Assembly (NCBI GenBank): GCA_947452785.1
Contig: CANGDZ010000043.1
Span: forward strand, 1 to 32,344
Origin: Comamonadaceae bacterium
GTDB lineage: Bacteria > Pseudomonadota > Gammaproteobacteria > Burkholderiales > Burkholderiaceae_C
DNA: 32,344 nt
Direction: 5' to 3'
Shown here: positions 11,976 through 29,016 of the stretch, piece by piece
How positions within the stretch are numbered: the stretch's first letter is position 1
Layout: every line of letters starts with the position of its first letter
The notes under the pieces: model-generated
What the model saw: only the letters and a program-made list of their open reading frames with translations
Told to the model about the DNA's origin: nothing
Databases searched by the model: none
Translations under genes and position numbers: made by a program

Positions 11976-12131
11976 GCCCTCACTTTAGCCTATAGCCGAG
12001 GCGAATACACCCGCAATCCGGTGGCATACGAGCGCAACACGGGTTAATTCGCATTCCCACGCCGCACAGCGTTGCCCATAATGCACAGGGGCCCACCATG
12101 GCGGCGGGCCCTGTTTTATGGAAAGCCCCGC

Positions 12132-13445: not shown

Positions 13446-14894
13446 ATGACAAACCAACTCGACAAAAAATCCCAAGCCTGGTCCGCGCTCTTTTCTGAAC
13501 CCATGAGCGAGTTGGTCAAGCGCTACACGGCCAGCGTGTTCTTTGACAAGCGCCTGTGGCAAGCCGACATCAGCGGCAGCTTGGCCCACGCCGAGATGCT
13601 GGCAGCGCAAAAGATCATTGGCGCCAGCGACCTGGCCGACATTAAGCGCGGCATGGCTCAGATCACGCAAGAAATCGAGTCAGGTGCCTTTGAATGGAAG
13701 CTGGACCTGGAAGACGTGCACCTGAACATTGAAGCGCGTCTGACCCAACTGGTGGGCGACGCCGGCAAGCGCCTTCACACCGGCCGCAGCCGCAACGACC
13801 AAGTTGCCACCGACGTGCGGCTGTGGCTGCGCAGCGAGATGGACCTGATCATCGAGCTGCTGGTGGACCTGCAAAAGTCGCTGGTCGATGTGGCCGAGCA
13901 CAACGTCGAAGTTATCCTGCCCGGCTTCACCCATTTGCAAGTGGCTCAGCCCGTGAGCTTTGCGCACCACCTCTTGGCTTATGTGGAAATGTTTGCGCGC
14001 GACGCCGAGCGCATGGTCGATGTGCGCCGCCGAACCAACCGCCTGCCACTGGGCTCTGCAGCACTCGCCGGCACCACTTACCCGCTAGACCGTGAGCGCG
14101 TGGCCCGCAGCCTGGGCATGGTCGATGCCGATGGTCATGCACAGGTCTGCCAAAACAGCCTAGACGGCGTGAGCGACCGCGACTTTGCGATTGAATTCAC
14201 CGCCGCCGCCAGCCTGTGCATGATGCACATCAGCCGCATGTCTGAAGAACTGATTTTGTGGATGAGCCAAAACTTTGGCTTCGTCAAGATCGCAGACCGT
14301 TTCACCACTGGCAGCTCCATCATGCCGCAAAAGAAAAACCCCGACGTACCCGAGCTGGCACGTGGCAAAACAGGCCGTGTGTTTGGCCACCTGATGGGCC
14401 TGCTCACGCTGATGAAGGGCCAGCCCCTGGCCTACAACAAAGACAACCAAGAAGACAAAGAGCCGCTGTTTGACACCGTGGACACGCTCAAAGACACCTT
14501 GCGCATTTTCAGCGAAATGATCGGTGGCCAGCTCAATCCGGCCACCGGCCAAAAAGAAGGTGGCATCACCGTGAATGCCGACGCCATGCAAGCCGCGGTG
14601 AAAAAAGGCTACGCCACGGCCACCGACTTGGCCGACTACCTGGTGAAAAAAGGTCAGCCCTTTCGCGATGCGCACGAGACCGTGGCCCACGCCGTCAAAG
14701 CCGCCACCAGCCACAACTGTGATCTTTCAGAGTTGCCACTGGCCGTGCTGCAGGGCTTTCATGCGTCCATCGAAAAAGACGTCTACGAAGTCCTGAGTCT
14801 GCGCGGCTCGCTGAACGCCCGTAACACCTTGGGTGGCACTGCGCCCGCACAGGTCAAGCTGCAGATTGCACGGCACCGCGCCCGATTCAACTAA
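13446..14894 (+). CDS. argH: Argininosuccinate lyase
   Basis: Cleaves argininosuccinate to arginine and fumarate, the last step of arginine synthesis. It belongs to the fumarase/aspartase superfamily. The signature [12 protein letters not shown] (residues 289-300), with the catalytic serine on the mobile loop, is perfect, as are the [12 protein letters not shown] and [16 protein letters not shown] regions. At 482 aa the length is normal. It seems to have its own short promoter. Its last eight bases overlap the 3' end of the MFS transporter gene on the other strand. Confidence 0.97.
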
Positions 14895-16119
14895 CCTCGG
14901 CTGAGGGGGACTTGGATAAGCGCAAAGCCAAGGGACCGAGCAGAACACCGACGGCCAGCACACCGAAGGCGGCCATCCATGCTTCGGGCACTTGGCCGCC
15001 GCCTTGAGAATCCAAAGCCAGCCCCATGGCCCACCCTGACAGCGCCGAAAGTCCAAAACCCACCGTGGAGTGCATGGCCAAGGTCAGGCCTTTGAATTGG
15101 GGTTGCGCGCACGACATCATGCCGGCCGTGAGTGAGCCCGAGTCTGCAGTCACGGTGACCGCATACATCAAGATCAAGGCCAGCAATACCCACGCAGAAC
15201 CACCCGCCCAAAAGCCAACCGACAAGGCGGTCACGCCGGAGGCCACCTGAATCCAGGTGATGGCGCGAATTCTGCCAAAGCGCAATGACATTTCGTTGCC
15301 CAGGATGCTGGCCGGCATGGCCAGCAAGGAAGCCAGAAAACTCACCACCACAGGCTCAGGCAAGGCTGCGCCCTGATGGCGAGCCACCACAAAGGTCCAA
15401 AATGCCACCACCCAGGTTCTGAAACCATACAACTCAAAGCAGTGCGCGCCATAACTCAAGATGTAGGCCATCGCCGGGCGATTGCGCAAAACCGGACGAA
15501 CATCCAGCAAATGACCGCCCACCGAAACAGGCGTCATGGGCTGCATACGCCAAGCCACAAAGGCCATGACCAAGGGCCCCATGGCGGTGAGGCCGAAGGA
15601 CCAGCGCCAACCCCAGGCATCGGCCACGAGTTGGGAAATCAAAAATGAAAAGCCAACCCCCATGGAATAACTGGAGGTGTACAAGGTGATGCTGCGTGAA
15701 GCGTTGGCATTGCCCAAGCGATCGATCAACGCGCGCAAGCCGGGCATATAGGCACCGGCAAAACTGGCGCCGGCCAAGGCCCAACACAGCATGCCGGTGA
15801 ACCAACTGTCTGCCATGAATGCAAAGGCCAAGGTACTGAGGGCGCTGCACAAAGAACCGCGCAGCAAGATGCGCCGCGCATCGAAACGGTCGGTCAATGC
15901 GCTCAACAAAGGGACGGCAAGCATATAACCTGCGGCATAGCTGGCCGCCAGCAAGCCTGCTTGAGAGTGGGTCATGCCCCACAAGGGCATCAGGTGCTGA
16001 ACCATCACCGCCGGCACAACCACATGGGGCAACAGATTGCCCACTTGGCCTATACACATGGCCCACACCAGGGCTTGACCTTGCAAGGGTTTCACCACTG
16101 GCGCCCTACCAAGCGGCAT
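14887..16119 (-). CDS. Major facilitator superfamily transporter
   Basis: An inner-membrane secondary transporter with about 12 hydrophobic segments in 410 aa. The loop between segments 2 and 3, [20 protein letters not shown], is the MFS motif A region. Substrate class cannot be read from sequence. The start is uncertain: ATG 16119 overlaps the upstream dehydrogenase gene by 14 bases, a GTG at 16098 has AGGG five bases or so upstream, and an ATG at 16149 is also in frame. The overlap means it is co-transcribed with the iron-ADH-like gene, which suggests uptake of that enzyme's substrate or a related carboxylate, or export of a product. It converges with argH with an 8-base overlap. Confidence 0.85.
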
Positions 16120-17275
16120 CCAGAATGCGGCGCACATCCTCGGGGCCATGGATTTTGCGGGGGTTGGTGTGAATCAAACGATCGTGCATTGCGTTGTGCG
16201 CAATCAGATCAAGCATCTGCGCTTGAACCCCCACTTCACGCAAAGTACGGGGCAAACCCAATTGCGCCACCAACTCTGCCACGACCTCACAGGCAGGTTT
16301 GTCGGGATCCCCCAGCGCTTCGCTGACACGCTGCTGCTGCGCGGCATTGACACTTTGGTTGAAGCGCAAGACATGCGGCAACATGACACAAGAGGTATAG
16401 CCATGCGGCACGCCCGCTGTGCCGCCCAACACATGGCCAATCCCGTGGCTGGCGCCTTTGTGAACGCCCGCACTGGAGCCGATGATGGACATCCAAGCAC
16501 CCAGCTGGCAATCGAGCCGCGCCTCCAGATCGGCAGGATCTTTTTTGACGGCACGCAGCCCACGCCCCAGTAAGCGCAGGGCTTGAAATGAAGTGGCTTC
16601 AGAAAGGGGTTGCGTGTTGATCGAGCACAAATCTTCCACCGCGTGATCCACCGCGCGAATCCCCGTGGACAGCCACAACCATTCGGGCGTGTGTAAGGTC
16701 AATGCAGGATCCAGAATCACAGAACGCGGCGAGGCCTGGGGATGTAAGAAGTTTTCTTTCATTCCCTTGACCGTGTCTGTACAGCCCGCCAAAGCGCTGA
16801 ATTCACCGGCTGAAAGCGTGGTGGAAATCACCGTGCAAGGCACCGTGGGCGCATGAAACTCAGGGCGTTCAATCCGACCATCGGCATGGACGCGGGTGGC
16901 CAATCGGTCCAGATCCTCGGCGGACTCGATCGCATTGCTCATGCACAGAGTGACCATTTTTCCGGCATCGGTGATCGAGCCGCCGCCCAGCGTCAAGATC
17001 AAGTCGGCCTTCGCCTTCGTGGCCTCTTGGGCTGCCTGGACCACAGCAAAGCGCGGCGTGTGCGCCGGCATCGCTTTGAACAAGCCCACGCAGCGTGCGC
17101 CCAGCACCGCCTGGAGCTCTTGCACGGCTTGTGTTTGACTCGCCAGGCTGGCACTGGCCAACACGTAAACACGTTGGGCACCCACGGCTTCCAACTCGAT
17201 GGCGAGGGCCTGTGCAAAGGGGCTGCCGTAGATGATTCTCTGGGTATGGGGATAACTGTAAATACCAGAACGCAT
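16106..17275 (-). CDS. Iron-containing alcohol dehydrogenase / maleylacetate reductase-like
   Basis: An NAD(P)-dependent dehydrogenase of the group III (iron) ADH fold. GGGSITDAGK (97-106) is the dinucleotide-binding loop. By alignment with the FucO metal site I can place H211 (RAVDHAVE), H277 (ASHGIGH) and H291 (VPHGYT) as three ligands; the position of the fourth, an aspartate in FucO, is R207 here. Loss of that aspartate is also seen in maleylacetate reductases, which reduce maleylacetate to 3-oxoadipate in aromatic breakdown. AAGGA six or so bases before the ATG supports the start. It leads the MFS gene and is divergent from the acyl-CoA dehydrogenase operon across 146 bases. A plain alcohol dehydrogenase remains possible. 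Confidence 0.85.
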   Translation of the reverse strand: MRSGIYSYPHTQRIIYGSPFAQALAIELEAVGAQRVYVLASASLASQTQAVQELQAVLGARCVGLFKAMPAHTPRFAVVQAAQEATKAKADLILTLGGGSITDAGKMVTLCMSNAIESAEDLDRLATRVHADGRIERPEFHAPTVPCTVISTTLSAGEFSALAGCTDTVKGMKENFLHPQASPRSVILDPALTLHTPEWLWLSTGIRAVDHAVEDLCSINTQPLSEATSFQALRLLGRGLRAVKKDPADLEARLDCQLGAWMSIIGSSAGVHKGASHGIGHVLGGTAGVPHGYTSCVMLPHVLRFNQSVNAAQQQRVSEALGDPDKPACEVVAELVAQLGLPRTLREVGVQAQMLDLIAHNAMHDRLIHTNPRKIHGPEDVRRILDAAW

Positions 17276-17358
17276 GGCGGTCCTTGTTGAGCCAGTGAGC
17301 AGGGGTCATCATCGCGGATTCACGACTTTCACGAGTCGCCCACTTGTCTGCTGCGGCC

Positions 17359-17386
17359 TTGACATCCAAAGTGAACGTATCAAGAT
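17359..17386 (+). promoter_or_regulatory. Promoter candidate for the catabolic operon
   Basis: A consensus -35 TTGACA (17359-17364) is followed 16 bases later by CAAGAT (17381-17386), a fair -10, about 35 bases before the first acyl-CoA dehydrogenase ATG. An imperfect inverted repeat, GTGAAC (17371-17376) and GCTCAC (17389-17394), overlaps the -10, and a second one, CGACT-N6-AGTCG (17323-17338), lies upstream. Both could be operators. No regulator gene is in the window. Confidence 0.45.
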
Positions 17387-17421
17387 GAGCTCACTTCAAT
17401 TTCTTCGGCGAAGGTCTTTTC

Positions 17422-18573
17422 ATGCATGATTTTGCATTTCCCGCAGTCGCGCTGCCTGAGAGTGCGCAGCTGCTGCGGCAACAAGTTCGCGACTTTCTGC
17501 AACGCGAAATGGATGCCGGCACGTTCACCCCGCGCCAAAATTCATGGTCCGATGGCGATGCAGAATTCAGCCGCAAATGCGGGCAAGCCGGCTACATCGG
17601 CATGGTCTGGCCCAAGGCCTATGGCGGCCATGAACGCACAGCGCTGGAACGCTATGTGATGACCGAAGAAATGCTGGCCGGCGGCGCACCCGTTGGCGCC
17701 CACTGGGTGGCCGATCGGCAAAGTGGCAACCAGATCCTGCGCCATGGCAGCGAGCGGGCCCGTCAATTGATCTTGCCGAAAATTGCAGCGGGCGAATGCT
17801 TTTTTTCGATCGGCATGAGCGAACCCGATTCGGGCTCCGACCTGGCCGCCGTCACAACCAAAGCTGTGAAGACAGAGGGCGGCTGGAAAATTTCTGGCAC
17901 CAAAGTCTGGACCAGCAGTGCGCATCGCGCCCACTACCTGATTGCTTTGGTGCGCACCGCGCCGAAAGAAGAAGATCGCCATTTGGGCATGACGCAGTTC
18001 ATTGTGGATTTGAAATCTCCCGGTTTGAAATTGAGCCCCATCCTGAACATCTACGGCGCACACGACTGGAATGAAGTCGTTTTTGATGAGTGCTTTGTGC
18101 CCGATGACATGGTCATGGGGGAAGTCGGCGGCGGCTGGAACATGGTCACCGGGGAGTTGGCGTTTGAGCGTTCCGGCCCCGACCGTTTTTTGAGTACTTA
18201 CCAACTCTTGCTGGCGGCCATGGCGCAATTGGGCGATCAACCCGATGCCCGCGCGGTGAATGAAATTGGCCGCTTTGTGGCCCACCTGACCACCTTGCGA
18301 CGCATGTCCACCTCGGTCGCCGGCATGCTCACTCGAGGCGAAAAACCCATTCTTGAAGCCGCCTTGGTCAAAGACATCGGCACCGCATTTGAGCGGGAAA
18401 TTCCAGAGATTTTTCGCCAACTGATCCCCTGTGAACCGGTGATGGACAGTGACAGCGTCGACTTTGAAGCCCTGCTGGGTATGGGCATGTTGAAGGCACC
18501 CGGCTTCACCATCCGCGGCGGCACACGTGAGATTTTGCGCGGCATGATTGCCAAAGGATTGGGACTGCGATGA
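17422..18573 (+). CDS. Acyl-CoA dehydrogenase, large-type subunit (383 aa)
   Basis: A flavoprotein of the acyl-CoA dehydrogenase family, which introduces a double bond alpha-beta to a CoA thioester. FSIGMSEPDSGSDLA (128-141) is the family signature 1 region and the C-terminus TIRGGTREILRGMIA is signature 2. In signature 2 the glutamate that is the base in medium-chain enzymes is glycine. A glutamate in AFERSGPDRF (E249) lies where another subgroup places its base. Its stop overlaps the start of a second, smaller dehydrogenase by four bases. That pairing recalls the alpha2-beta2 heterotetramers known from steroid side-chain breakdown (FadE28-FadE29 type). First gene of a long plus-strand operon. 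Confidence 0.93.
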   Translation: MHDFAFPAVALPESAQLLRQQVRDFLQREMDAGTFTPRQNSWSDGDAEFSRKCGQAGYIGMVWPKAYGGHERTALERYVMTEEMLAGGAPVGAHWVADRQSGNQILRHGSERARQLILPKIAAGECFFSIGMSEPDSGSDLAAVTTKAVKTEGGWKISGTKVWTSSAHRAHYLIALVRTAPKEEDRHLGMTQFIVDLKSPGLKLSPILNIYGAHDWNEVVFDECFVPDDMVMGEVGGGWNMVTGELAFERSGPDRFLSTYQLLLAAMAQLGDQPDARAVNEIGRFVAHLTTLRRMSTSVAGMLTRGEKPILEAALVKDIGTAFEREIPEIFRQLIPCEPVMDSDSVDFEALLGMGMLKAPGFTIRGGTREILRGMIAKGLGLR

Positions 18574-19631
18574 GCGATATTCGTGATGATCTGGAAAAAA
18601 CGGTGGATCGCATCTGTGAAGCGCATTGCACCAAAAATGTCTTCATGTCGAGCGAGTCAGGTACCTGGCCGCAAGCGCTGTGGCAGGCGCTCGAAGAAGT
18701 CGGACTGCCCCAAGCCTGCCTGAGTGAAGCACAAGGCGGCAGCGGCCTGAGCTATGAAGACGCGCTGTATGTCTTACGGCGCACGGCCTACCATGCCGCG
18801 CCGGTGCCACTGGCCGAGACTTTCCTGGCCGGCCGACTGCTTTGTGCCGCAGGGATGGAGGTGCCTGCAGGGGTTTTGTCAGTCAGCGGGTCCCACCTCA
18901 AAGACCGTTTGAAACTGACGGGGGATGCGGCTTCGCCGACCCTGTCGGGTCATGCGCACCGCGTGCCTTGGGGTTTGTCTTGCGATCATCTGGTGCTGGT
19001 GGCCGAGCGCGATGGCGCGCCCTGCGTGGTGCGGGTGGAGCGCAAAGACTTGGCGCAAACAATTCATGCCATGACACCCAATTTGGCTGGCGAACCTCGT
19101 GTCCAGTTTGAGTTTGCAAACACCCCTGTTCAAGCGGTGGGCTTGTTGGCCGACGCGCGTGAGCGGCTAGGTTGCGAAGGCGCCTTGATGCGTTCTGTGC
19201 AAATGGCCGGCGCCTTACAGCGCGCATTGGCTTACTCCCTGCAATATGCCAATGACCGCGTGCAGTTTGGCCGCCCGATTGGTAAGTTCCAGGCGGTGCA
19301 GCACATGCTGGCCGTGTTAGCAGGGCATGTGGCCGCGACCACGGCGGCCGCAGACGCGGCCATTGAAGTGTCCAGCGCAGCACCCGAACTTTTTGCCGTG
19401 GCCGTTGCGAAATCCAGAGCGGGAGAAGCCGCCGGCAAAGGCGCAGAAATTGCCCACCAAGTGCATGGGGCCATGGGCTTTACCCGTGAACATAATTTGC
19501 ATCACTTGACGCGGCGACTGTGGTCGTGGCGCGATGAGTTTGGCAACGAAACCCATTGGCAGACTCGCATTGGCGAGATGGCTTTAAAGCAAGGGGCCGA
19601 CAAATTGTGGCCATTCCTCACAAGTTTGTGA
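18570..19631 (+). CDS. Acyl-CoA dehydrogenase, small-type partner subunit (353 aa)
   Basis: It has the acyl-CoA dehydrogenase helical domain at the C-terminus, with RVQFGRPIGKFQAVQH (about 229-244) and QVHGAMGFTREHNLHHLTRR, both associated with FAD contact. The N-terminal and middle domains are shortened and diverged, and the serine/threonine-rich signature 1 (as in SEPDSGSD) is absent. A diverged, shorter partner made from an overlapping ATGA start is the mark of heteromeric acyl-CoA dehydrogenases, where FAD and substrate sites are shared between unlike subunits. I infer that it works with the preceding gene product and is probably inactive alone. Confidence 0.88.
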   Translation: MSDIRDDLEKTVDRICEAHCTKNVFMSSESGTWPQALWQALEEVGLPQACLSEAQGGSGLSYEDALYVLRRTAYHAAPVPLAETFLAGRLLCAAGMEVPAGVLSVSGSHLKDRLKLTGDAASPTLSGHAHRVPWGLSCDHLVLVAERDGAPCVVRVERKDLAQTIHAMTPNLAGEPRVQFEFANTPVQAVGLLADARERLGCEGALMRSVQMAGALQRALAYSLQYANDRVQFGRPIGKFQAVQHMLAVLAGHVAATTAAADAAIEVSSAAPELFAVAVAKSRAGEAAGKGAEIAHQVHGAMGFTREHNLHHLTRRLWSWRDEFGNETHWQTRIGEMALKQGADKLWPFLTSL

Positions 19632-19657
19632 ATTCCAACCGATTCAGGACACCGATC

Positions 19658-20635
19658 ATGCTCAAGCGAAATCTCATTTTTGGCGCTGCTTTGTCCATCG
19701 CCATGGCCATCTCTGTCGGGGCGCTGGCCCAGGAGAAAGAATTTCCATCGCGACCGCTGCGCATCTTTGTGCCCTTTACCGCAGGCAGTGGCTCGGACAC
19801 CACGGCGCGATTTTTTGGCGATCGCTTGGCCAAACAACTGGGCCAAAATGCGGTGATCGAAAACAAACCCGGCGCCAGCGGCATTATTTCTGTGCAGGCC
19901 TTGTTGGCGCTGCCAGCCGATGGGCACACCATTTTGTTGGCCAGTAATTCGCCCATTTCGGTCAATCCGGTGAGCATCAAAAACCTGCCCTACAACCCCA
20001 TGACCGACCTGACCCCGTTGGCGGGCTTGTCGCGCAATATGAACGTTTGGGTCGTCTCCGCCAACTCCAAATTGAACAGCTTGAAGGACGTGGTGGAGTA
20101 CGCCAAACACAACCCGACCAAGCCTTTGAGTTTGGCCAACTATTCGGCCGGCTACCGTTTGTCTGGCGAATGGTTTTCGAATATGGCGGGCATTAAATTC
20201 AACCACATCACCTACAAAGGCGGTGCGCAAATTTTCACCGACCTGATGGGGGATCAACTCGATGTCGGCATTGCCGACCTGGGCGGTGCGGCCTCCTTGA
20301 TCAAGGCAGGAAAACTCAAGGCCATCGCCGTGTCGGGTGAAAAAAGACATCCTGATTTCCCCACTGTCCCCACCTTCATCGACAGCGGATTTCCAGATTT
20401 CGTGAATTACTCTTGGACCTCGTTTTACGTCAAAGCGGGTACCCCCGAAGCCATAAAGAAGAAACTCACCGAGGCCCTGGTGAAAGTGCGTGATACTCGT
20501 GAAGGCAATGACTACAACCGGGCCTCAGGCGCAGAAAGCATGCCCTACTTTGGCGAGAGCATGCAAAAATTCCAGCAAGACGAATTGGAGCGCTTTACAC
20601 GCATTGCCAAGCTGGCGGGAATTCAACCCGAATGA
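19658..20635 (+). CDS. Bug-type tripartite tricarboxylate transporter solute-binding protein (325 aa)
   Basis: The N-terminus has a typical signal peptide ending in VGALAQ (cleavage near residue 24), so the protein is periplasmic. FPSRPLRIFVPFTAGSGSDTTARFF and QLGQNAVIENKPGASG are standard TctC/Bug family motifs, and the bilobed binding fold continues to the end (PTVPTFIDSGFPDFVN). These proteins bind carboxylates or related ligands. No TctA/TctB membrane genes are in the window, which is common, as Bug proteins greatly outnumber transporters in these bacteria. I place the start at ATG 19658, with AGGA eight bases or so upstream; the frame is open to 19556 inside the previous gene. It overlaps the next gene by four bases. 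Confidence 0.93.
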   Translation: MLKRNLIFGAALSIAMAISVGALAQEKEFPSRPLRIFVPFTAGSGSDTTARFFGDRLAKQLGQNAVIENKPGASGIISVQALLALPADGHTILLASNSPISVNPVSIKNLPYNPMTDLTPLAGLSRNMNVWVVSANSKLNSLKDVVEYAKHNPTKPLSLANYSAGYRLSGEWFSNMAGIKFNHITYKGGAQIFTDLMGDQLDVGIADLGGAASLIKAGKLKAIAVSGEKRHPDFPTVPTFIDSGFPDFVNYSWTSFYVKAGTPEAIKKKLTEALVKVRDTREGNDYNRASGAESMPYFGESMQKFQQDELERFTRIAKLAGIQPE

Positions 20636-21507
20636 CGGGCGTTCGCGTGTCGATGTACCGACCCGACCTCCTGCGCGGTCAACGCATTTTGATCACGGGC
20701 GGCGGCACGGGCTTGGGTAAAAGCATTGGCCAGCGCTATGTGGCCTTGGGTGCGGACTTGGTGATCTGTGGCCGCCGGGCAGAGGTACTGGCGCAAACCG
20801 CCCAAGAGTTCAAGGACACCCTGGGGGTGAGCATCGAGACTCATGTCTGCGATGTGCGCGATGCGCAGGCGGTCACCTCGATGATGGATGCCATCTGGGC
20901 TAACGGCCCCCTGGATGTTTTACTCAACAATGCGGCCGGTAATTTTTTGGCCCGCACCGAGCGTTTGTCGCCGCGCGCCTTTGATGCCGTCGTGGACATT
21001 GTGCTCAAAGGATCCGCTTATTGCACGATGGACGTTGGGCGTCGCTGGATCGCCGCTGGCCGCAAAGGCACGGTCATGTCGATCCTGACCCAGTCGGCTA
21101 TGACCGGCATGCCCTACACCGTTCCTTCTGCGATGGCCAAGGCCGGCGCGTTGGCCATGATCCGAAGTCTGGCCGTCGAATGGGGACCTTATGGGATTCG
21201 CACGGTGGGGGTGGTCCCAGGGCCATTTCCCACGGAAGGTGCCTGGTCCCGATTGATGCCGCAAGAGCGGATCGGCGAAGCGCCGATTGAGCAAGGTGTG
21301 GCCCTGCGCCGCTTGGGCGAGCACCATGAGTTGGCCGACTTGTGCGTGTATTTGATTTCGGAAAGCGCCGCGTTCATCACCGGCGAAGCCGTGGTCATCG
21401 ACGGTGGCCGCTGGCTCCAGGGCGCGGCAGGGGCTTCGGCGTACCACATGCAGCAGTGGCCCGACAGCACCTGGGACAGCCTCAAACCCAAGAAAACCGC
21501 CGCATGA
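20632..21507 (+). CDS. SDR oxidoreductase, 2,4-dienoyl-CoA reductase-like (291 aa)
   Basis: A short-chain dehydrogenase with TGGGTGLG (22-29) for NADP(H), NNAAGNF (99-105), and DIVLKGSAY. PSAMAKAGALAMIRSLAVEWGPYGIR, with lysine K170, and PGPFPTEGAWSRL match mitochondrial-type 2,4-dienoyl-CoA reductases closely. These reduce conjugated dienoyl-CoA with NADPH. That family uses a tyrosine about 15 residues before the lysine instead of the classical Y-x-x-x-K; here the aligned residue is S155 and a tyrosine, Y162, sits eight residues before the lysine. The start ATG overlaps the previous stop (ATGA); a second ATG at 20653 is possible. Its stop overlaps the CoA-transferase start in the same way. 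Confidence 0.9.
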   Translation: MTGVRVSMYRPDLLRGQRILITGGGTGLGKSIGQRYVALGADLVICGRRAEVLAQTAQEFKDTLGVSIETHVCDVRDAQAVTSMMDAIWANGPLDVLLNNAAGNFLARTERLSPRAFDAVVDIVLKGSAYCTMDVGRRWIAAGRKGTVMSILTQSAMTGMPYTVPSAMAKAGALAMIRSLAVEWGPYGIRTVGVVPGPFPTEGAWSRLMPQERIGEAPIEQGVALRRLGEHHELADLCVYLISESAAFITGEAVVIDGGRWLQGAAGASAYHMQQWPDSTWDSLKPKKTAA

Positions 21508-22721
21508 ACCCCAATTTGGATTTGTCGCAAGGTCCCCTGACCGGGATTCGCATACTGGATTTGACCTCCGTGGTGTTAGGCCCCTTGGCCACGCAGATTC
21601 TGGGCGATTACGGCGCCGACGTGATCAAGGTGGAGAGCCTTGAAGGCGATTTGATGCGCTCCAATGGCGTCCATCTGGCACCGGGCATGAGCTCCATTTA
21701 CCTGACCATCAACCGCAACAAACAGTCGATCGCACTGGACCTCAAGAGCGAATCGGGCAAAGAAATTTTGCGCCAACTCATTCCCCGGGTGGATGCGGTG
21801 GTGCACAACATGCGCGTGTCTGCCATCGAAAAACTCGGCTTTGGTTACGACGAAGTGGTGAAGTTGAATCCGCAGATCGTGTATTGCGCGGCCACCGGTT
21901 TTGACCAAGACGGTCCTGACAAAGACCGCCCTGCATTTGACGACATCATTCAAGCGGCCTGCGGTCTGGCCAGTGTCAACAGTCTGGGCCATTCAAGGCC
22001 GGACTACATCGCCACCTTGGTGGCCGACAAAACCACCGGTATGGCCTTGGTCAATGCGGTGCTGGCTGCTTTGTTGGCCAAAGAGCGCAGCGGTCAAGGG
22101 CAGTATGTGGAAGTGCCGATGCTCGAGACCATGGTGGCGTTCACCTTGGTCGAGCACATGGGTGGCTTGACACACAACCCGGCCACCCTGAATGCCGGCT
22201 ACAGCCGCATCTTGTCCGGCGGGCGCCAGCCCAGTCCTACGCGCGATGGTTTCATCGCCATGCTGCCCTACACCAACCACCACTGGGAAAGCTTTTTCAA
22301 GGACGCGGATCAAGAAGCCCTGGGCAAATCGTTGGGCGTCACCAACCGCGTCCAACGCAACGCCAACATCAAAGCGCTGTATGCGGCTTTGCATCAAATC
22401 ACCCTCGGCAAAACCACCGCAGAATGGCTCGTGATTTGCGACCGCTTGGACATACCAGCCACGCCCATCTACGCCATGGAAGACTTGCCTGCCCATCCGC
22501 AGTTGCAAGCCGTGAAGTTATTTACAGACGATGTGCATCCCGATGTCGGCGCCATCCGTTATGTGCGCCCACCGGTCAAATTTTCCAAAACTCCCGCCAA
22601 AGTGCGCCACCAGGCCCGCCGATTAGGGCAGGATACCCGCGCCATCTTGTCCGAATTGGGCTACAGCGCCAGCCAGGTCGATGCGCTTGAGCAGCAAGGG
22701 GCCATCTTGAATGGCGACTGA
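21504..22721 (+). CDS. CaiB/BaiF class III CoA-transferase (405 aa)
   Basis: A family III CoA-transferase, which moves CoA between carboxylic acids through an aspartyl-CoA thioester. GIRILDLTSVVLGPLATQILGDYGADVIKVE is the standard N-terminus, and the catalytic aspartate is D146 in DRPAFDDIIQ. ERSGQGQYVEVPMLETM is another family motif. I infer that it activates the carboxylic acid that the downstream dehydrogenases and crotonase-fold protein handle as a CoA ester. The ATG overlaps the preceding TGA by four bases, so translation is coupled. The frame is open upstream to 21342 but only inside the SDR gene. A second, distinct class III transferase lies at 26288-27487. Confidence 0.94.
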   Translation: MNPNLDLSQGPLTGIRILDLTSVVLGPLATQILGDYGADVIKVESLEGDLMRSNGVHLAPGMSSIYLTINRNKQSIALDLKSESGKEILRQLIPRVDAVVHNMRVSAIEKLGFGYDEVVKLNPQIVYCAATGFDQDGPDKDRPAFDDIIQAACGLASVNSLGHSRPDYIATLVADKTTGMALVNAVLAALLAKERSGQGQYVEVPMLETMVAFTLVEHMGGLTHNPATLNAGYSRILSGGRQPSPTRDGFIAMLPYTNHHWESFFKDADQEALGKSLGVTNRVQRNANIKALYAALHQITLGKTTAEWLVICDRLDIPATPIYAMEDLPAHPQLQAVKLFTDDVHPDVGAIRYVRPPVKFSKTPAKVRHQARRLGQDTRAILSELGYSASQVDALEQQGAILNGD

Positions 22722-22755
22722 ATTTTTTGAAGACTTTTAAACACAGGACCACGCC

Positions 22756-23535
22756 ATGAGCCCAACCCCCGAACTAAAAATCACCCACGACGGCCATGTC
22801 ACCTTGGTTGAAATTTGCCGTCCACCGCACAACTTTTTTGACTTTGAGTTGATCCAACAAATTGCCCAAACCTTCGAGGAATTGGATTTAAACCCGCAAT
22901 GCCGCGCGATCGTTCTGGCCTCTGAAGGCACGGCATTTTGTGCGGGCGCCAACTTCAACAGCTCGAACGACAAAATCAGTCGCCCCGAAAATCCAGGCAC
23001 CAACCCCTTGTATTTTGAAGCGATTCGAATTTTTGCCTGCAAAAAACCCATCGTGGCCGCGATTCACGGACCCGCCGTGGGCGGTGGCCTGGGCCTGGCC
23101 TTGGTGGCGGATTTCCGTGTCACCTGCCCTGAAGGACGCTTCTCAGCGAACTTCAACCGACTGGGATTCCACCCCGGGTTTGGTTTATCGGTCACGCTGC
23201 CGCGTTTGGTCGGCATCCAGCAAGCCAATCTGTTGTTTTTCACAGGACGACGCATCAACGGCGAGGAGGCCGTGGAGATCGGCCTGGCCGATCTGCTGGT
23301 GCCGCAAGCGGATGTCCGCGCGCAAGCCCTGAAACTGGCCCACGAAATCGCCGTCTCCGCACCGCTGTCACTTCAGTCCACGCGCGCCACGCTACGCCAA
23401 GGTCTGGTGGCGCAATTGGAGCAAGCCGTGGCGCATGAAAGTCTGGAACAGAACTGGCAGTTCAAATCGGCAGACTTCAAGGAAGGCGTCAAAGCCATGA
23501 CGGAGCGCCGAGAGCCTCAATTCCAAGGTCGTTAA
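22756..23535 (+). CDS. Enoyl-CoA hydratase/isomerase (crotonase) family protein without canonical glutamates
   Basis: A crotonase fold of normal length (259 aa). The oxyanion-hole segments are present: FCAGANFNSS (61-70) and GPAVGGGLGLAL (105-116). Aligned with rat enoyl-CoA hydratase, the two catalytic glutamates (E144 and E164) correspond to F133, in FSANFNRLG, and L159, in QQANLLFFTG. Without them ordinary syn-hydration of a trans-enoyl-CoA is unlikely. Crotonase-fold enzymes can instead isomerise, decarboxylate, open rings or hydrolyse thioesters using other residues. The gene follows the CoA-transferase by 34 bases and shares its operon. My alignment was done by eye, so register errors of one residue are possible. 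Confidence 0.88.
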   Translation: MSPTPELKITHDGHVTLVEICRPPHNFFDFELIQQIAQTFEELDLNPQCRAIVLASEGTAFCAGANFNSSNDKISRPENPGTNPLYFEAIRIFACKKPIVAAIHGPAVGGGLGLALVADFRVTCPEGRFSANFNRLGFHPGFGLSVTLPRLVGIQQANLLFFTGRRINGEEAVEIGLADLLVPQADVRAQALKLAHEIAVSAPLSLQSTRATLRQGLVAQLEQAVAHESLEQNWQFKSADFKEGVKAMTERREPQFQGR

Positions 23536-23573
23536 ACCCGGCCTTTGGCGTTCATCACCGGGTGAATTTTTTC
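23536..23573 (+). terminator. Possible attenuating hairpin inside the operon
   Basis: ACCCGG (23536-23541) can pair with CCGGGT (23558-23563) around a 16-base loop, followed by GAATTTTTTC. It begins right after the crotonase stop codon and ends before the amidohydrolase start at 23591. It may reduce expression of the downstream genes; the long loop makes strong termination doubtful. Confidence 0.42.
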
Positions 23574-23590
23574 AAGAAAAGATTTTGAAT

Positions 23591-25279
23591 ATGCACGACT
23601 TGATCATTCGCAACGCGCAGGTTTTTGACGGCACAGGACTGCCCGCGGTGCTGGCCGATGTGGCGGTGTCACAAGGGCGCATTGTGCAGATCGGCAAGGT
23701 CAACGGGCCAACCCATGAAACCATCGACGCCCAAGGCCTGGCCTTGATGCCCGGCATCGTGGACTTGCATACGCACTATGACGCGCAAGTCACCTGGGAC
23801 CGCACCCTGTCCCCCTCACCCGCTTTGGGGGTGACCACCGCAGTGATCGGCAATTGTGGTTTTGGCATTGCGCCTTGCCCCGCCCCACTGCGCGAAACCA
23901 TGTTGAAAAATCTCTCTGTCGTAGAAGGCATGGATTTGCAATCCCTGTTGACCGGCGTGAATTGGGAGTTTGAGACCTTTGGCCAGTACATGGACCAGTT
24001 GCGGCGCATTGGCCCCTACGTCAACACCGCGGTGTTTGCGGGGCACTCGGTCATCCGAACGTCCGTGATGGGGGCACAAGGTTCGACCCAAGCAGAACCC
24101 AGCCCGGAGCAATTGCAGGCCATGCAGACCCTGGTACGTGAGGCCATGGCGCAAGGCGCGATTGGTTTTGCGTCCTCCTTCTCGCCCAATCACAGTGGCT
24201 TTGGCGGCATTCCCATGCCCTCGACCATTGCCAGCGAAGACGAGTTGCGTGCCCTGACCTCGGTCTTGGGCGAGCTGCACAAAGGTGTCTTCATGATGGC
24301 CACGGGCTCGCGCGCCAGTCCCGACGTGATGGAGTCCATCGTGGAGGCGACAGGGCGACCCGGCTACATCTCCACCGTTTTGACCATGTACAACGAGGGC
24401 AATCCGACTTTAGGCCCCACGTACTATGAGCGCTGCGCACAGGCCTTGGCCAGAGGCCATGAGTTGTACATCCTGACCAGTTGCCAACCGCTGTCGTTTG
24501 ACTTCACCTTGACTGACCCGTATGTGATGCTCAGTCACTCCGCTTTCAATCCCATCAAAAACGCAGACGTTTCCGCCTACGCCGACATCTACCGCTCGGC
24601 CAGTTTTCGCCAAGCGTTCCGCAAGAACTTGCTTCAACCCGAGGCCGGCATTCTTTTTCTGGGCAACTGGCGGCACATCGAAGTGGGTCAAACCAGCCAC
24701 CCCGAAAACGCGGCCCTGGAAGGCATAAGCATTCAAGATCTGGCCGATCAGCGCGGGCTGGACCCGGTGGATGTCTTTTTGGATCTGGCGCTGGCCGAAG
24801 ATCTGGGCACCCATTTCGTGGGTAAGTTTTTCAACAACAATGACGAAGGCGTCGCCCCGTCCCTGAAACACCCGGCCAGTGTGATCACCTTGTCCGACGC
24901 GGGTGCGCACTTGACCTACATGTGTGACGCAGGCTTTGGCCTTTACTTCCTGTCCCATTGGGTGCGCGAGACGGGGCATTTCACTTTAAGCGAAGGCATT
25001 CGCCGACTCACCAGCGAGCCTGCAGACCGCTTTCGCATTCCAGACCGTGGCCGCTTGCATGTGGGCTTGCCAGCCGACCTGTTGTTGTTCGACCCCGACA
25101 CGGTGGGCATTTCCAAACCTGTGCCGCAGCAGGACTTGCCAGGGGGCGGCACCCGCATGGTGCGCACGGCCACGGGGGTCCATGGGGTTTGGGTCAATGG
25201 CGTCAAAGTCCATGACGGGCAAAACTACGTCGAACACGAACACGGGCCCGGCCACGTTCTGGATCACTTCAATTCCTAA
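23591..25279 (+). CDS. Amidohydrolase, N-acyl-D-amino-acid deacylase family (562 aa)
   Basis: An amidohydrolase-superfamily TIM barrel. MHDLIIRNAQVFDGTG and MPGIVDLHTHYDAQVTWD carry the HxH metal motif (H60, H62). GNCGFGIAPC supplies cysteines C89 and C96 in the region where D-aminoacylase uses a cysteine ligand, and SDAGAHLTYM gives D436, the catalytic aspartate position. Where D-aminoacylase has its H220 and H250 regions (ATHxR and ISHH-like), this protein reads MATGSRAS and ISTVLTMYNEG, with no histidine, so the metal site must differ. A co-transcribed role with acyl-CoA chemistry suggests hydrolysis of an amide or lactam-like ring, but this is a guess. I use ATG 23591; an in-frame TTG at 23585 exists. 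Confidence 0.85.
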   Translation: MHDLIIRNAQVFDGTGLPAVLADVAVSQGRIVQIGKVNGPTHETIDAQGLALMPGIVDLHTHYDAQVTWDRTLSPSPALGVTTAVIGNCGFGIAPCPAPLRETMLKNLSVVEGMDLQSLLTGVNWEFETFGQYMDQLRRIGPYVNTAVFAGHSVIRTSVMGAQGSTQAEPSPEQLQAMQTLVREAMAQGAIGFASSFSPNHSGFGGIPMPSTIASEDELRALTSVLGELHKGVFMMATGSRASPDVMESIVEATGRPGYISTVLTMYNEGNPTLGPTYYERCAQALARGHELYILTSCQPLSFDFTLTDPYVMLSHSAFNPIKNADVSAYADIYRSASFRQAFRKNLLQPEAGILFLGNWRHIEVGQTSHPENAALEGISIQDLADQRGLDPVDVFLDLALAEDLGTHFVGKFFNNNDEGVAPSLKHPASVITLSDAGAHLTYMCDAGFGLYFLSHWVRETGHFTLSEGIRRLTSEPADRFRIPDRGRLHVGLPADLLLFDPDTVGISKPVPQQDLPGGGTRMVRTATGVHGVWVNGVKVHDGQNYVEHEHGPGHVLDHFNS

Positions 25280-25288
25280 GGGACGTGT

Positions 25289-26254
25289 ATGAAACTGCTT
25301 TTTCGCTGCGTGGCCACTCTGTTGCTGCTGGGGATGTCCGGCGCGCTGTGGGCGCAAAACTGGCCGACCAAACCGATTCGCATGATCATTGCCTTTCCGC
25401 CCGGAGGGCCCACCGACCTGGTCTCACGCGTGCTAGCGCAGCGCCTGTCGGAACAACTGGGTCAACAAGTCATCGTCGACAACAAGCCCGGCGCTGGCGG
25501 TAACATCGCGGCCGAATTGTCGGCCAAGGCTGCGCCCGATGGCTACACCGTGTTCTACAACACATCGGCCATCGTGATCGGACCGGCCTTGTATGGCAAG
25601 GTGAATTACGACCCCTTGAAAGATTTTGCCCCTGTGGCGTTGACGGCCAGCGTGCCCCTCGTGCTGGTGGTGAACCCGCAACTGCCGGCCCGCTCGGTCA
25701 AAGAGTTTTTGGATCTGGCCAAGTCGCGTGCCGGTGCGCTCAACTACAGCTCATCCGGCACGGGAACGATCACCCATCTGGCCAGCGCCATGATGTCCAC
25801 GCAGATGGGCCTTCAAACCCAGCACATTCCCTACAAAGGCAGCGCCCCGGGTTTGGTTGATCTGGTGGCGGGTCAAACGCAGTTCATGATCGACACCATG
25901 AACACGGTGCTGCCGTATGCGCGTGACAACCGCTTGCGGGGATTGGCCGTGACGGGCAGCAAGCGCTCGGCGCTTATGCCCGAGCTGCCGACCCTGGCCG
26001 AATCAGGCATGCCCGGCTTTGAAGCGGCGGCCTGGCAAGGCATTGTGGTTCCCACAGGCACACCGGCAGACATCATTCAAAAACTCAATGTAGAAGTGAA
26101 CAAAGCCTTGGCCAATCCTGATGTGCGCTCGCGCCTGGCCGCACAAGGGGCGGACATTTTGGGTGGCTCTCCCGCAGAATATGCGGCTTACCTGCGCACG
26201 GAAATTCCGCGTTGGACCAAGGCCGTCAAGGACTCGGGCGCCAAAGCAGAATAA
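25289..26254 (+). CDS. Bug-type tripartite tricarboxylate transporter solute-binding protein (321 aa)
   Basis: Signal peptide at residues 1-22 (ending GALWAQ), then NWPTKPIRMIIAFPPGGPTDLVSRVLA and QVIVDNKPGAGGNIAAE, the most typical Bug/TctC motifs, and MPELPTLAESGMPGFEAAAWQG in the second half. It is a periplasmic binding protein for a small carboxylate or similar solute. It differs from the other Bug protein at 19658-20635, so the two probably bind different ligands or came by separate routes. It starts nine bases after the amidohydrolase stop and appears to be the last gene of the operon; the next gene converges on it with 33 bases between stops. Confidence 0.95.
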   Translation: MKLLFRCVATLLLLGMSGALWAQNWPTKPIRMIIAFPPGGPTDLVSRVLAQRLSEQLGQQVIVDNKPGAGGNIAAELSAKAAPDGYTVFYNTSAIVIGPALYGKVNYDPLKDFAPVALTASVPLVLVVNPQLPARSVKEFLDLAKSRAGALNYSSSGTGTITHLASAMMSTQMGLQTQHIPYKGSAPGLVDLVAGQTQFMIDTMNTVLPYARDNRLRGLAVTGSKRSALMPELPTLAESGMPGFEAAAWQGIVVPTGTPADIIQKLNVEVNKALANPDVRSRLAAQGADILGGSPAEYAAYLRTEIPRWTKAVKDSGAKAE

Positions 26255-26287: not shown

Positions 26288-27487
26288 TCAACGGTTGGTT
26301 GCGCCCGCAAGCTGAAGCGCTTGTATGGCCTGCGCATCCCAACCCGCTTCGCGCAAGACCTGCTCACTGTGTTGGCCCAAGCGGGGGGCCGGTTTTTGCT
26401 GAGGCAAATTGGGTGTTCCTGAAAAACGAACGGGCACACCAATTTCAAGCATCTTGCCCTCGCTGGGGTGCTCCACCTGTTGCAACATACCGACCGCATG
26501 AAGATGAGGGTCTTGGATCAAACTGTCGATATCGTGCATGGGCATGCAAGGGATATCGGCCTGATTCAAGCGCTCCATCCAAGCCTCGGTGGTGTCCGTG
26601 GCCATGGCGGTGGCGACCATGCCGTACAAATCGTTGATGTGCAAGGTGCGTGCCCCGATCGAGGCAAACCGCGGGTCCTGTTGAAACAACGCTCCCTGCC
26701 CGATCAACTCCAAAAACTTTTTCCAATGGCGGTCGGTGTAGATCAAGACACAGATATAGCCGTTGTGTGTTTGGTAAGGGCGTCGCTCTTTGACCAGCAA
26801 GCGAGAATAACCCGTGGGCCCCATGGGCGGCTCATAGGACGCGCCGGCCATGTGCTCGCCCAACACGTATTGCGCTAAGGTTTCAAACATGGGCACTTCC
26901 ACCGCTTGGCCCAGGCCCGTTTGGTAGCGGGACACCACCGCGGCCAAGATGGCGTTGCAAGCCATCAACCCGACCGTGCGGTCAGCCAGGGTCAAGGGGA
27001 CATAACGAGGCTCGCCCCCACTGGCTTGACTCATCAAACTGGGGACGGCGCAAATGCCTTGAATCAAGTCGTCATAAGCCGGTTTGCCCGCGTAAGGGCC
27101 GTTTTCGCCATAGCCGTAAAGCCCCGCGTAAATGATTCGGGGGTTGATGGCTTTCAGGCCTTCGTACGCAATGCCCAGTCGCAGCATGGCCTGAGGCCTG
27201 ATGTTGTAGACCACCACATCGGCTGTTTCCACCAATTTGAAAAACGCGTTCAGTCCCTCTGGCTTTTTCAAGTCCAGCACCAAGCTGCGTTTGTTGCGGT
27301 TCACATGCAAAAAGTTCGACCCCATGCGCTCATGGCGCATCGGGCCAATGCCTCTGACGGTGTCGCCAGAAGGCGACTCGATCTTGATCACATCAGCGCC
27401 CATGTCCGCCATCAGCTGTGTGGCATAGGGGCCCATCAACACACTGGACAGATCCAGAATTCGCAATCCACTTAAAGCACCACTCAT
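26288..27487 (-). CDS. CaiB/BaiF class III CoA-transferase (399 aa)
   Basis: A second family III CoA-transferase. GLRILDLSSVLMGPYATQLMADMGADVIKIE opens the protein, the catalytic aspartate is D139 in KPAYDDLIQG, and QAVEVPMFETLAQYVLGEH is conserved. It is a clear relative of, but not a recent copy of, the transferase at 21504-22721; the motif regions agree but the rest diverges. It faces the Bug gene and is divergent from the molybdenum-hydroxylase genes, across an intergenic region of 247 bases that could hold promoters for both. By position it may activate the product of, or the substrate for, the Mo-hydroxylase, which is inference. Confidence 0.94.
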   Translation of the reverse strand: MSGALSGLRILDLSSVLMGPYATQLMADMGADVIKIESPSGDTVRGIGPMRHERMGSNFLHVNRNKRSLVLDLKKPEGLNAFFKLVETADVVVYNIRPQAMLRLGIAYEGLKAINPRIIYAGLYGYGENGPYAGKPAYDDLIQGICAVPSLMSQASGGEPRYVPLTLADRTVGLMACNAILAAVVSRYQTGLGQAVEVPMFETLAQYVLGEHMAGASYEPPMGPTGYSRLLVKERRPYQTHNGYICVLIYTDRHWKKFLELIGQGALFQQDPRFASIGARTLHINDLYGMVATAMATDTTEAWMERLNQADIPCMPMHDIDSLIQDPHLHAVGMLQQVEHPSEGKMLEIGVPVRFSGTPNLPQQKPAPRLGQHSEQVLREAGWDAQAIQALQLAGATNR

Positions 27488-27734
27488 ATTGCTCTCACTT
27501 GTTGGGATGAATGGCCCGGGCCAGAGGGCTTGCGCACCGAACTGGTTTGACTCAGACAGCCCAGTCTAGGTCTGAAAGCCCGTCGCGGCTGCAACATAGA
27601 TGACGCGCAAAGGTTGCTGTTGTCACAGTCTCTGGGTTACCCTGAGGTTTGACCATGCTGGCTTTCTCAGCGCCTTCCCATCACCTGCGACATCACGGCG
27701 CAAGGGACTTGGGGATTTTTTTGAACGGGTGTCC
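27488..27734. other. Divergent control region between CoA-transferase and Mo-hydroxylase genes
   Basis: No gene is visible; the plus-strand frame open from 27600 belongs to the next gene but that part has no start with a ribosome-binding site and no conserved sequence. Promoters for both directions should lie here. I could not pick out a convincing -35/-10 pair or a strong palindrome. Confidence 0.4.
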
Positions 27735-28517
27735 ATGTATCCATTCCATTACCAAAAAGCCAGTTCTGTGGCGCAGGCCAGTGCGGCTCTGGCCCGCAGT
27801 GGGGAGTCTCGGCTGTTGTCGGGCGGCATGACCCTGATCCCCTCCCTCAAACACCGTTTGATCCAGGTCGATGAACTGATTGACATCAAAGGCATTCCGG
27901 GTCTGTCAGACATCCGCATGCAAGGCGATCAGTTATGGATCGGCGCGGGCGCCACCCACAAACAAGTGGCGCAGCACGCGCAGGTGCGCGCCTTCAGTGC
28001 CGGATTGGCCGACCTGGCGGGCCTGATTGGCGACCCGCAAGTGCGCGCCCGTGGCACGCTGGGGGGCTCTGTGGCCAACAACGACCCTGCAGCCGACTAC
28101 CCAGCCGCCGTGCTGGGCTTGGCCGCGAGCATCGTGACCTCGCACCGCGAGATCGCCGCTGACGACTTCTTCAAAGGCATGTTTGCCACCGCCTTGGCGC
28201 CAGACGAAGTGATTCAGGGCTTGCGTTTTGCGCGCCCCTTGAAAAGTGCTTACGCCAAATTTCGCCACCCAGCCACGGGCTATGCCATGGCCGGCGTGTT
28301 TGTGGCGCAAACCGACGCAGGCGCTTGGCGCGTGGCCGTGACCGGCGCGACCGACGGCGTTTGCCGCTGGCCTGAAGCCGAAGCTGCGGCAGGCCATTCG
28401 CCCGCTGACTTGCGCTTTGTGCATGACGGTGTGCTCGACGACATTCACGCCCCTGCTGCCTACCGTACGCACTTGGTCAGCCTTTTGTATGCCCAAGCTG
28501 TGACCCGCCTGTCTTGA
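27735..28517 (+). CDS. Molybdenum hydroxylase, FAD-binding (medium, CoxM-like) subunit
   Basis: FAD-binding subunit of the xanthine oxidase/CO dehydrogenase family, passing electrons from the Fe-S subunit to an acceptor. [10 protein letters not shown] (27-36) and [18 protein letters not shown] (107-124) are the two FAD-contact motifs. The end includes [14 protein letters not shown], typical of the C-terminal domain. I use ATG 27735, which gives 260 aa beginning [14 protein letters not shown], the normal family start; the frame is open to 27600. Four bases separate it from the 2Fe-2S subunit gene. Order here is medium, small, large. Confidence 0.93.
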
Positions 28518-28521
28518 TCTG

Positions 28522-29016
28522 ATGATGGAACCCCACCCCATGCGCCCAATCTCACTGACCGTCAACGGCCACACCCACGCAGTCGCAGTCGAAGACCGCA
28601 CCCTGCTGGCCGACCTCTTGCGCGACCAACTGCACCTCACCGGCACCCATGTGGGTTGCGACACCAGCCAATGCGGTTGTTGCACGGTGTTGATGGACGG
28701 TGACGCGATCAAGTCTTGCACCGTGCTGGCGGTGCAAGCCGAGGGCGCCCACATCACCACCATTGAGGGTTTGGCCAAAGGCCCAGACTTGCACCCGATT
28801 CAAGCCGCTTTTTCGCAGTGCCACGGACTGCAATGCGGGTTTTGCACGCCAGGCATGATCATGGCCACAGCCAGTTTGCTCTCCCACACGCCACAGCCCA
28901 CCGAGGCGCAAATCTTTGAGGGTTTGGCGGGCAATTTGTGCCGCTGCACCGGCTACATCCATATCGTGGAATCCGTCAAGCTGGCGGCAAAGACGCTTCA
29001 GGAGAAGACGGTATGA
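28522..29016 (+). CDS. Molybdenum hydroxylase, 2Fe-2S (small, CoxS-like) subunit
   Basis: The iron-sulfur subunit with two [2Fe-2S] clusters. All eight cysteines are visible: C46, C51, C54 and C66 for the plant-ferredoxin-type cluster ([16 protein letters not shown]), and C105, C108, C140 and C142 for the four-helix domain cluster ([10 protein letters not shown] and NLCRCTGY). At 164 aa it is the usual size. The start is uncertain: ATG 28522, 28525 or 28540 are in frame, and [10 protein letters not shown] at 28540 looks like the conserved beginning. Its TGA overlaps the ATG of the large subunit by four bases, so translation is coupled. Confidence 0.96.

Follow-up and report, generated by a model that had tools for sequence, protein, structure and literature searches.

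Two putative CoA-dependent carboxylate-catabolism modules lie side by side in a Burkholderiales genome

The window analysed here is a stretch of 32,344 nucleotides, contig CANGDZ010000043.1 (C43) of assembly GCA_947452785.1, a 3.5 Mb metagenome-assembled genome, 98% complete, from a lake bacterium of the order Burkholderiales. Eight open reading frames (ORFs) lie on the plus strand between positions 17422 and 26254. The original prediction read them as one operon for the catabolism of one carboxylate via coenzyme A (CoA) esters. We somewhat favour another reading, in which the region combines two modules for CoA-dependent carboxylate catabolism that can occur apart, and in which each module has a Bug periplasmic binding protein and a class III CoA-transferase to itself. 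Module A consists of acdA-acdB-bug1-sdr-frc1-ech and the divergent feADH; module B consists of ahy-bug2 and the convergent frc2. The span is taken to join two modules because ahy-bug2, with or without frc2, stands apart from the core of module A in the genomes of loci L067, L069 and L070 and recurs in other families. The genes and the intergenic region are as follows.

16106 to 17275, minus strand: feADH, group III alcohol dehydrogenase resembling maleylacetate reductase, divergent member of module A (PF00465, PF25137, synteny)
17276 to 17421, no strand: divergent intergenic region with a conserved promoter-like block (13-sequence alignment)
17422 to 18573, plus strand: acdA, acyl-CoA dehydrogenase subunit (Pfam Acyl-CoA_dh N and M domains)
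18570 to 19631, plus strand: acdB, predicted partner subunit of a heteromeric acyl-CoA dehydrogenase (Pfam Acyl-CoA_dh N and C domains)
19658 to 20635, plus strand: bug1, TctC/Bug periplasmic binding protein, module A (PF03401, synteny)
20632 to 21507, plus strand: sdr, short-chain dehydrogenase/reductase (SDR) resembling 2,4-dienoyl-CoA reductase (Pfam adh_short_C2; NCBIfam PRK07677 below cut-off; PDB 1w6u)
21504 to 22721, plus strand: frc1, class III CoA-transferase, module A (PF02515, CoA_transf_3)
22756 to 23535, plus strand: ech, atypical crotonase (PF00378, ECH_1)
23585 to 25279, plus strand: ahy, Amidohydro_3 protein, module B, start at TTG 23585 or ATG 23591 (Pfam, PDB matches to D-aminoacylase)
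25289 to 26254, plus strand: bug2, TctC/Bug binding protein, module B (PF03401; adjoins ahy in other families, and also in genomes with an unlinked ahy)
26288 to 27487, minus strand: frc2, class III CoA-transferase convergent with bug2, third gene of module B (PF02515)

ORF calls, Pfam and NCBIfam returned the families that had been named from the letters, with Pfam hits for all eight genes. The single direction and the ATGA overlaps were likewise confirmed: 4-base overlaps occur at three of the seven junctions, and the remaining gaps are 26, 34, 55 and 9 bases. The unit is larger than first drawn, as feADH and frc2, both outside the earlier span, also belong to it.

When GTDB genome contigs were searched with acdB, 80 loci were obtained, in which acdA was found 74 times and acdB 79 times at the thresholds used. 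In the 15 loci of the Limnohabitans type, feADH was present in 12, acdA in 12, acdB in 15, bug1 in 15, sdr in 14, frc1 in 13 and ech in 12, and every shortfall was a contig ending before the gene. The order of module A is kept in these loci, with proteins 77–100% identical, far beyond chance. More distant loci (43–69% identity) carry all seven genes together with changed orientations (L100, L103 and L104) or six of the seven (L084 and L099). feADH, left out by the original prediction, belongs to module A. The conservation of gene order that had been proposed as a check thus holds for module A; across the whole span only subsets travel together, the outcome that the original prediction had named as refuting it. 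Most other acdB loci contain acdA-acdB with different partners, commonly CoA-transferases and other crotonases, and TRAP or ABC uptake genes, identified by eye, also occur near acdA-acdB. The closest copies of the region are in records labelled Limnohabitans, Comamonadaceae or Burkholderiales, the best being L060, with an acdB 97% identical. Neither ahy nor ech was found in three sampled congeners at the thresholds used, and the region is therefore accessory.

Module A was also approached from ech, which was searched in 300 genomes of the order and 299 of the family. Each sample contained 18 genomes with a match, the window's own genome included, and the neighbourhoods of 35 of the 41 other matches were read. 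At least one of acdA, acdB, bug1, sdr and frc1 was found in 14 of these 35 loci (frc1 in 10, acdB in 9, acdA in 7, bug1 in 6 and sdr in 4). A compact form in L222 and L228 has bug1 and frc1 set against acdA-acdB-ech-sdr, with a TetR-like gene nearby (by eye). According to our own ORF calls, acdA-acdB-bug1 is followed by a LysR-like gene (by eye) on the reverse strand and then by ech-frc1 in Cupriavidus metallidurans CH34, where these genes lie on the megaplasmid, and in C. campinensis. No ahy was detected in any of the 35 loci at the thresholds used.

Module B is found without module A. In L067, L069 and L070 the core stops at ech, and ahy is located elsewhere in the same genomes at 84–86% identity. 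Two of these separate loci, L160 and L161, have ahy, then bug2, then convergent frc2, with neither module A nor xdh (a variable neighbour in the window, described below) beside them within the 20 kb read; the third contig with an unlinked ahy, L162, terminates after bug2. Limnohabitans strain WS1, which is in culture, has modules A and B unlinked. Pairs of ahy and bug2 occur in other families of the order (L040, L041, L043, L044 and L057), and ahy and frc2 are adjacent in L164 and L165. Subsets of the core without ahy occur in Cupriavidus and other Burkholderiales, and plasmid records gave one distant ahy match at 34.5% identity. These arrangements suggest that the cluster is two separable gene sets side by side and not one pathway. 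The claim of one operon for one substrate is not well supported, given the unlinked ahy and the core subsets that lack it. The stretch beside the unlinked module B of L161 (L161:11149-19337) contains a CoA-transferase, a MaoC-like gene (by eye), two Bug proteins, a CoA-transferase, another acdA-acdB pair and a crotonase.

Several results weigh against the two-module reading, and one of them favours a single pathway in which ahy releases or ring-opens a precursor, module A degrades the resulting acid, and uptake of both compounds is served by the two Bug proteins. Twenty genomes contain the core (15 of the Limnohabitans type and those of L084, L099, L100, L103 and L104). ahy was found at at least 50% identity in 17 of the 20, including three in which it is unlinked, compared with 4 of 16 genomes that have acdAB without the full core (Fisher p 0.0005, the lineages not being independent); the core genomes lacking it at this identity are L061, L064 and L103. 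In the order sample, an ahy-family match (E 1e-100 or better, 37–72% identity) was present in 11 of the 17 other ech genomes and in 44 of 299 others, genome size being uncontrolled. Locus L040 also speaks for the single pathway: ahy-bug2 is followed there by a different acdA-acdB-crotonase set (L040:4751-10659), so that ahy has been paired independently with genes of a heteromeric dehydrogenase. Against it, ahy at at least 50% identity was found in 2 of the 17 other ech genomes of the order sample, near the roughly 1.3 expected from 23 of 299, and none of the 17 other ech genomes of the family sample was among the 9 others with an ahy match (E 1e-150 or better, best identity 48%). ahy as an obligatory partner was accordingly rejected: the association is strong in acdB-recruited genomes, and close ahy orthologues do not follow it in the random samples of family and order. 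Module B also has its own CoA-transferase, and ahy lacks two His motifs, as described below. We regard the single pathway as rather unlikely.

The other points against the two-module reading concern its enzymes. All NCBIfam matches listed for the core enzymes are below their curated cut-offs. No feADH was found in the 35 ech-recruited loci at the thresholds used. In 21 of these loci none of acdA, acdB, bug1, sdr and frc1 was found at the same thresholds; the ech family at large thus also occurs outside module A. Finally, sdr and ech could be inactive or have another chemistry, residues of their active sites being lost.

acdA matches chain A of 4x28 and the Tcur3483 chain, and acdB matches chain D of 4x28 and the Tcur3481 chain (PDB sequence search). 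The adjacent genes thus correspond to two different chains, the arrangement of an α2β2 acyl-CoA dehydrogenase. Because they match different chains of solved heteromers, "split", the word used in the original prediction, is wrong: acdA and acdB are two subunits of a predicted heteromeric acyl-CoA dehydrogenase. A stretch EL..ER.GP.R is conserved in 72 rows of the acdA alignment, and acdB has an NCBIfam IpdE2 match below cut-off. The solved heteromers (4x28; Tcur3481/Tcur3483, 6wy8/6wy9), which we take to be acyl-CoA dehydrogenases of steroid catabolism, likewise have two unequal subunits, one chain per acd gene. In contrast to those systems, the similarity of acdB is weak (best E 5.5e-16), and the other seven genes of the span have no steroid-specific family match in Pfam or NCBIfam.

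The absence of catalytic glutamates from the crotonase was borne out. Alignment of ech to a solved 3-hydroxypropionyl-CoA dehydratase placed Gly113 and Phe133 at the two catalytic Glu positions, which we take to be 144 and 164 in the rat numbering of enoyl-CoA hydratase. Both residues are kept in all 19 rows and in 11 of 11 rows of a second alignment, and the substituted region lies in a strongly conserved stretch, ANFxRLGFHPGFGL. The predicted structure (mean predicted local distance difference test score, pLDDT, 73.8) has the crotonase fold, and all 50 Foldseek rows shown are crotonases. ech is thus a member of the crotonase superfamily that lacks the Glu pair of enoyl-CoA hydratase. The pLDDT falls below 50 at residues 134–140, adjoining the second Glu position, and the structure yielded no functional assignment.

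The closest solved relative of sdr is mitochondrial 2,4-dienoyl-CoA reductase (PDB 1w6u). sdr keeps SxxxK of the DECR1-type active site. Ser replaces the Tyr of DECR1 (presumably Tyr199) in at least 23 of 24 rows, and all 10 rows shown carry Lys or His instead of its Asn (presumably Asn148). The relationship to 1w6u would suit an auxiliary β-oxidation of unsaturated fatty acids, in which AcdAB would act with a 2,4-dienoyl-CoA reductase and an enoyl-CoA isomerase. The loss of the two active-site positions speaks against this. So do the Bug proteins and class III CoA-transferases, whose conservation suggests small acids taken up from outside, and feADH is left unexplained; such a role is very improbable.

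The best PDB sequence matches of feADH are 3jzd and 9ph0 (MAR1), with 3w5s among further matches; maleylacetate reductases (3w5s, 3hl0; MAR1 9ph0) are thus among its best solved relatives, and MAR1 shares with it the stretch RAVDHAVE and one resembling SHGxGHxLG. Unlike maleylacetate reductases, feADH has genes for CoA-ester metabolism as neighbours in the window, and no ring-cleavage dioxygenase was found in the span by Pfam. The metal site of iron-dependent alcohol dehydrogenases is presumably Asp-His-His-His; feADH departs from it, with Arg at the Asp position in at least 19 of 20 rows and also in the nine rows shown, the window included. Two plasmids, one of Rhizorhabdus wittichii DC-6 and one of C. 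oxalaticus, have a member of the subfamily next to genes for a CoA-transferase and an acyl-CoA dehydrogenase. The subfamily was rejected as an indicator of CoA-transferase clusters, since the Azospirillum Az39 copy lies amid ABC transporter, thiolase and MaoC genes with no CoA-transferase in the stretch.

frc1 scores over the PF02515 cut-off and has an L.ADKT motif conserved in 21 rows, the Asp of which is presumably catalytic; these are the features of a class III CoA-transferase. Its best solved relative is succinate-hydroxymethylglutarate CoA-transferase (PDB 9br7). bug1 and bug2 both score over the PF03401 cut-off, as expected of Bug/TctC proteins. The proposed uptake and CoA activation of a carboxylate are well supported by this family content and by the conserved synteny. 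The whole 3.5 Mb genome has 96 TctC/Bug matches and only 3 TctA membrane proteins.

ahy belongs to the same sequence family as D-aminoacylase and N-acyl-D-glutamate deacylase (1m7j, 3gip) and shares their N-terminal HTH and NCG motifs; with SDAG, these are retained in ahy, whose conservation was examined in 42 rows. In contrast to a canonical D-aminoacylase-like paralogue, ahy lacks two His motifs. THMRDE is absent from ahy and four relatives, and SHHK from ahy and three of the four, L171 (48%) having one His aligned there. D-aminoacylases presumably bind metal through HxH, Cys, Asp and two further core His; ahy has neither of the two motifs. An amide substrate is therefore not to be assumed, and the amide bond that had been read from the amidohydrolase family is poorly supported.

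In the two-module reading, module A is probably a peripheral route for CoA-dependent catabolism of a small, probably dicarboxylic, acid. Bug1 would capture the acid for uptake through a TctAB pore encoded elsewhere, three TctA genes being present elsewhere in the genome. Frc1 would transfer CoA to the acid from succinyl-CoA or a similar donor, and the heteromeric AcdAB would put in an α,β double bond. The unsaturated CoA ester may next undergo reduction, isomerisation or opening by the Glu-less crotonase and the SDR related to dienoyl-CoA reductase, and the maleylacetate-reductase-like iron-dependent alcohol dehydrogenase may act on an oxo/enoate or semialdehyde product. The product would exit to central metabolism, because Pfam showed no thiolase in the span. 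A related acid or precursor would be handled by module B (ahy, bug2, frc2). The gene families, the conserved modules, the heteromer-type subunits and the conserved substitutions in active sites are observed. The predicted families imply uptake, CoA activation by Frc1 and desaturation by AcdAB; the order of the reactions, the CoA donor and the substrate class we infer. Our guess at the substrate is a small unsaturated, cyclic or oxo dicarboxylate, because the solved relatives of frc1 (9br7) and feADH (maleylacetate reductases) are both dicarboxylate enzymes.

A more far-reaching possibility is that AcdAB feeds enzymes with rebuilt active sites (the Gly/Phe crotonase, the Tyr-less SDR and the iron-dependent alcohol dehydrogenase with Arg in its metal site, joined in lake Burkholderiales by the two-His-less amidohydrolase) in a widespread, undescribed route whose new chemistry would open a ring or cleave a carbon-heteroatom bond in a dicarboxylate that is common in nature. 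We consider this speculative and improbable. Catabolism of a thioether acid such as 3,3'-thiodipropionate, by CoA activation, desaturation next to sulfur, hydration and cleavage, for which the route proposed in Variovorax paradoxus TBEA6 is the nearest mechanistic proposal (PMC6370202), is most improbable. In seven genomes, TBEA6 not among them, one gene per genome scoring above the curated cut-off for 3-sulfinopropionyl-CoA desulfinase was taken; the 14 stretches on either side of these genes held no acdA, acdB or ech homologues of the cluster type and only weak acdA/acdB matches of 52–67 bits.

For few Bug proteins, which are greatly amplified in this bacterium, is the ligand known. Here one such orphan binding protein is linked, in CH34 as well, to a particular CoA-transferase and enzyme set, so that its substrate can be sought by experiment. 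For the conserved crotonases without the Glu pair a new activity would have to be assigned, and CH34 offers a tractable host for a reduced form of module A.

The intergenic region between feADH and acdA contains, in Limnohabitans-type loci, TTGACA or TTGACT, about 17 nt and AAGAT, with a TGTCT element upstream; the distant L078 row deviates from the block. It is a possible operator, judged from the alignment. Two further features flank the modules.

14887 to 16149, minus strand: major facilitator superfamily (MFS) transporter, overlapping the end of feADH (PF07690)
27732 to 31301, plus strand: xdhBCA, molybdenum hydroxylase resembling glyceraldehyde and carbon monoxide (CO) dehydrogenases, outside modules A and B (variable neighbour)

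The MFS gene adjoins module A in 9 of the 15 Limnohabitans-type loci (tally at at least 70% identity). The nearest models of xdhBCA, those of glyceraldehyde and CO dehydrogenase, score below their cut-offs, and xdhB at at least 70% identity occurs in 4 of the 15 loci, contig ends not being allowed for. At 12072-13385 the window encodes a serine hydrolase of β-lactamase fold with a weak match to 3-succinylated cholic acid synthase; argH lies between it and the cluster.

The region is a predicted CoA-dependent peripheral catabolic module whose gene set was not matched to a named pathway within the literature searched, as the original prediction had said. That literature was the openly licensed part of PMC, judged mainly by title and abstract, so the absence of a described cluster with this gene set there is no proof. 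A methylsuccinate/itaconate cluster (PMC12290011) was rejected as a match on the passages compared, its gene set being different. The thn operon of anaerobic naphthalene degradation (PMC11659651, in the passages compared) resembles the cluster in combining a CoA-transferase with an acyl-CoA dehydrogenase, there acting on a cyclic dicarboxylate; it was rejected as a match on its differing gene set, ThnP being a family I CoA-transferase and ThnO a homotetramer. NCBIfam carnitine models match the cluster far below cut-off. Compared with carnitine-type CaiA/CaiB/CaiD sets, the cluster is distinguished by its predicted heteromeric dehydrogenase, its Glu-less crotonase, its Bug proteins, its SDR and its iron-dependent alcohol dehydrogenase.

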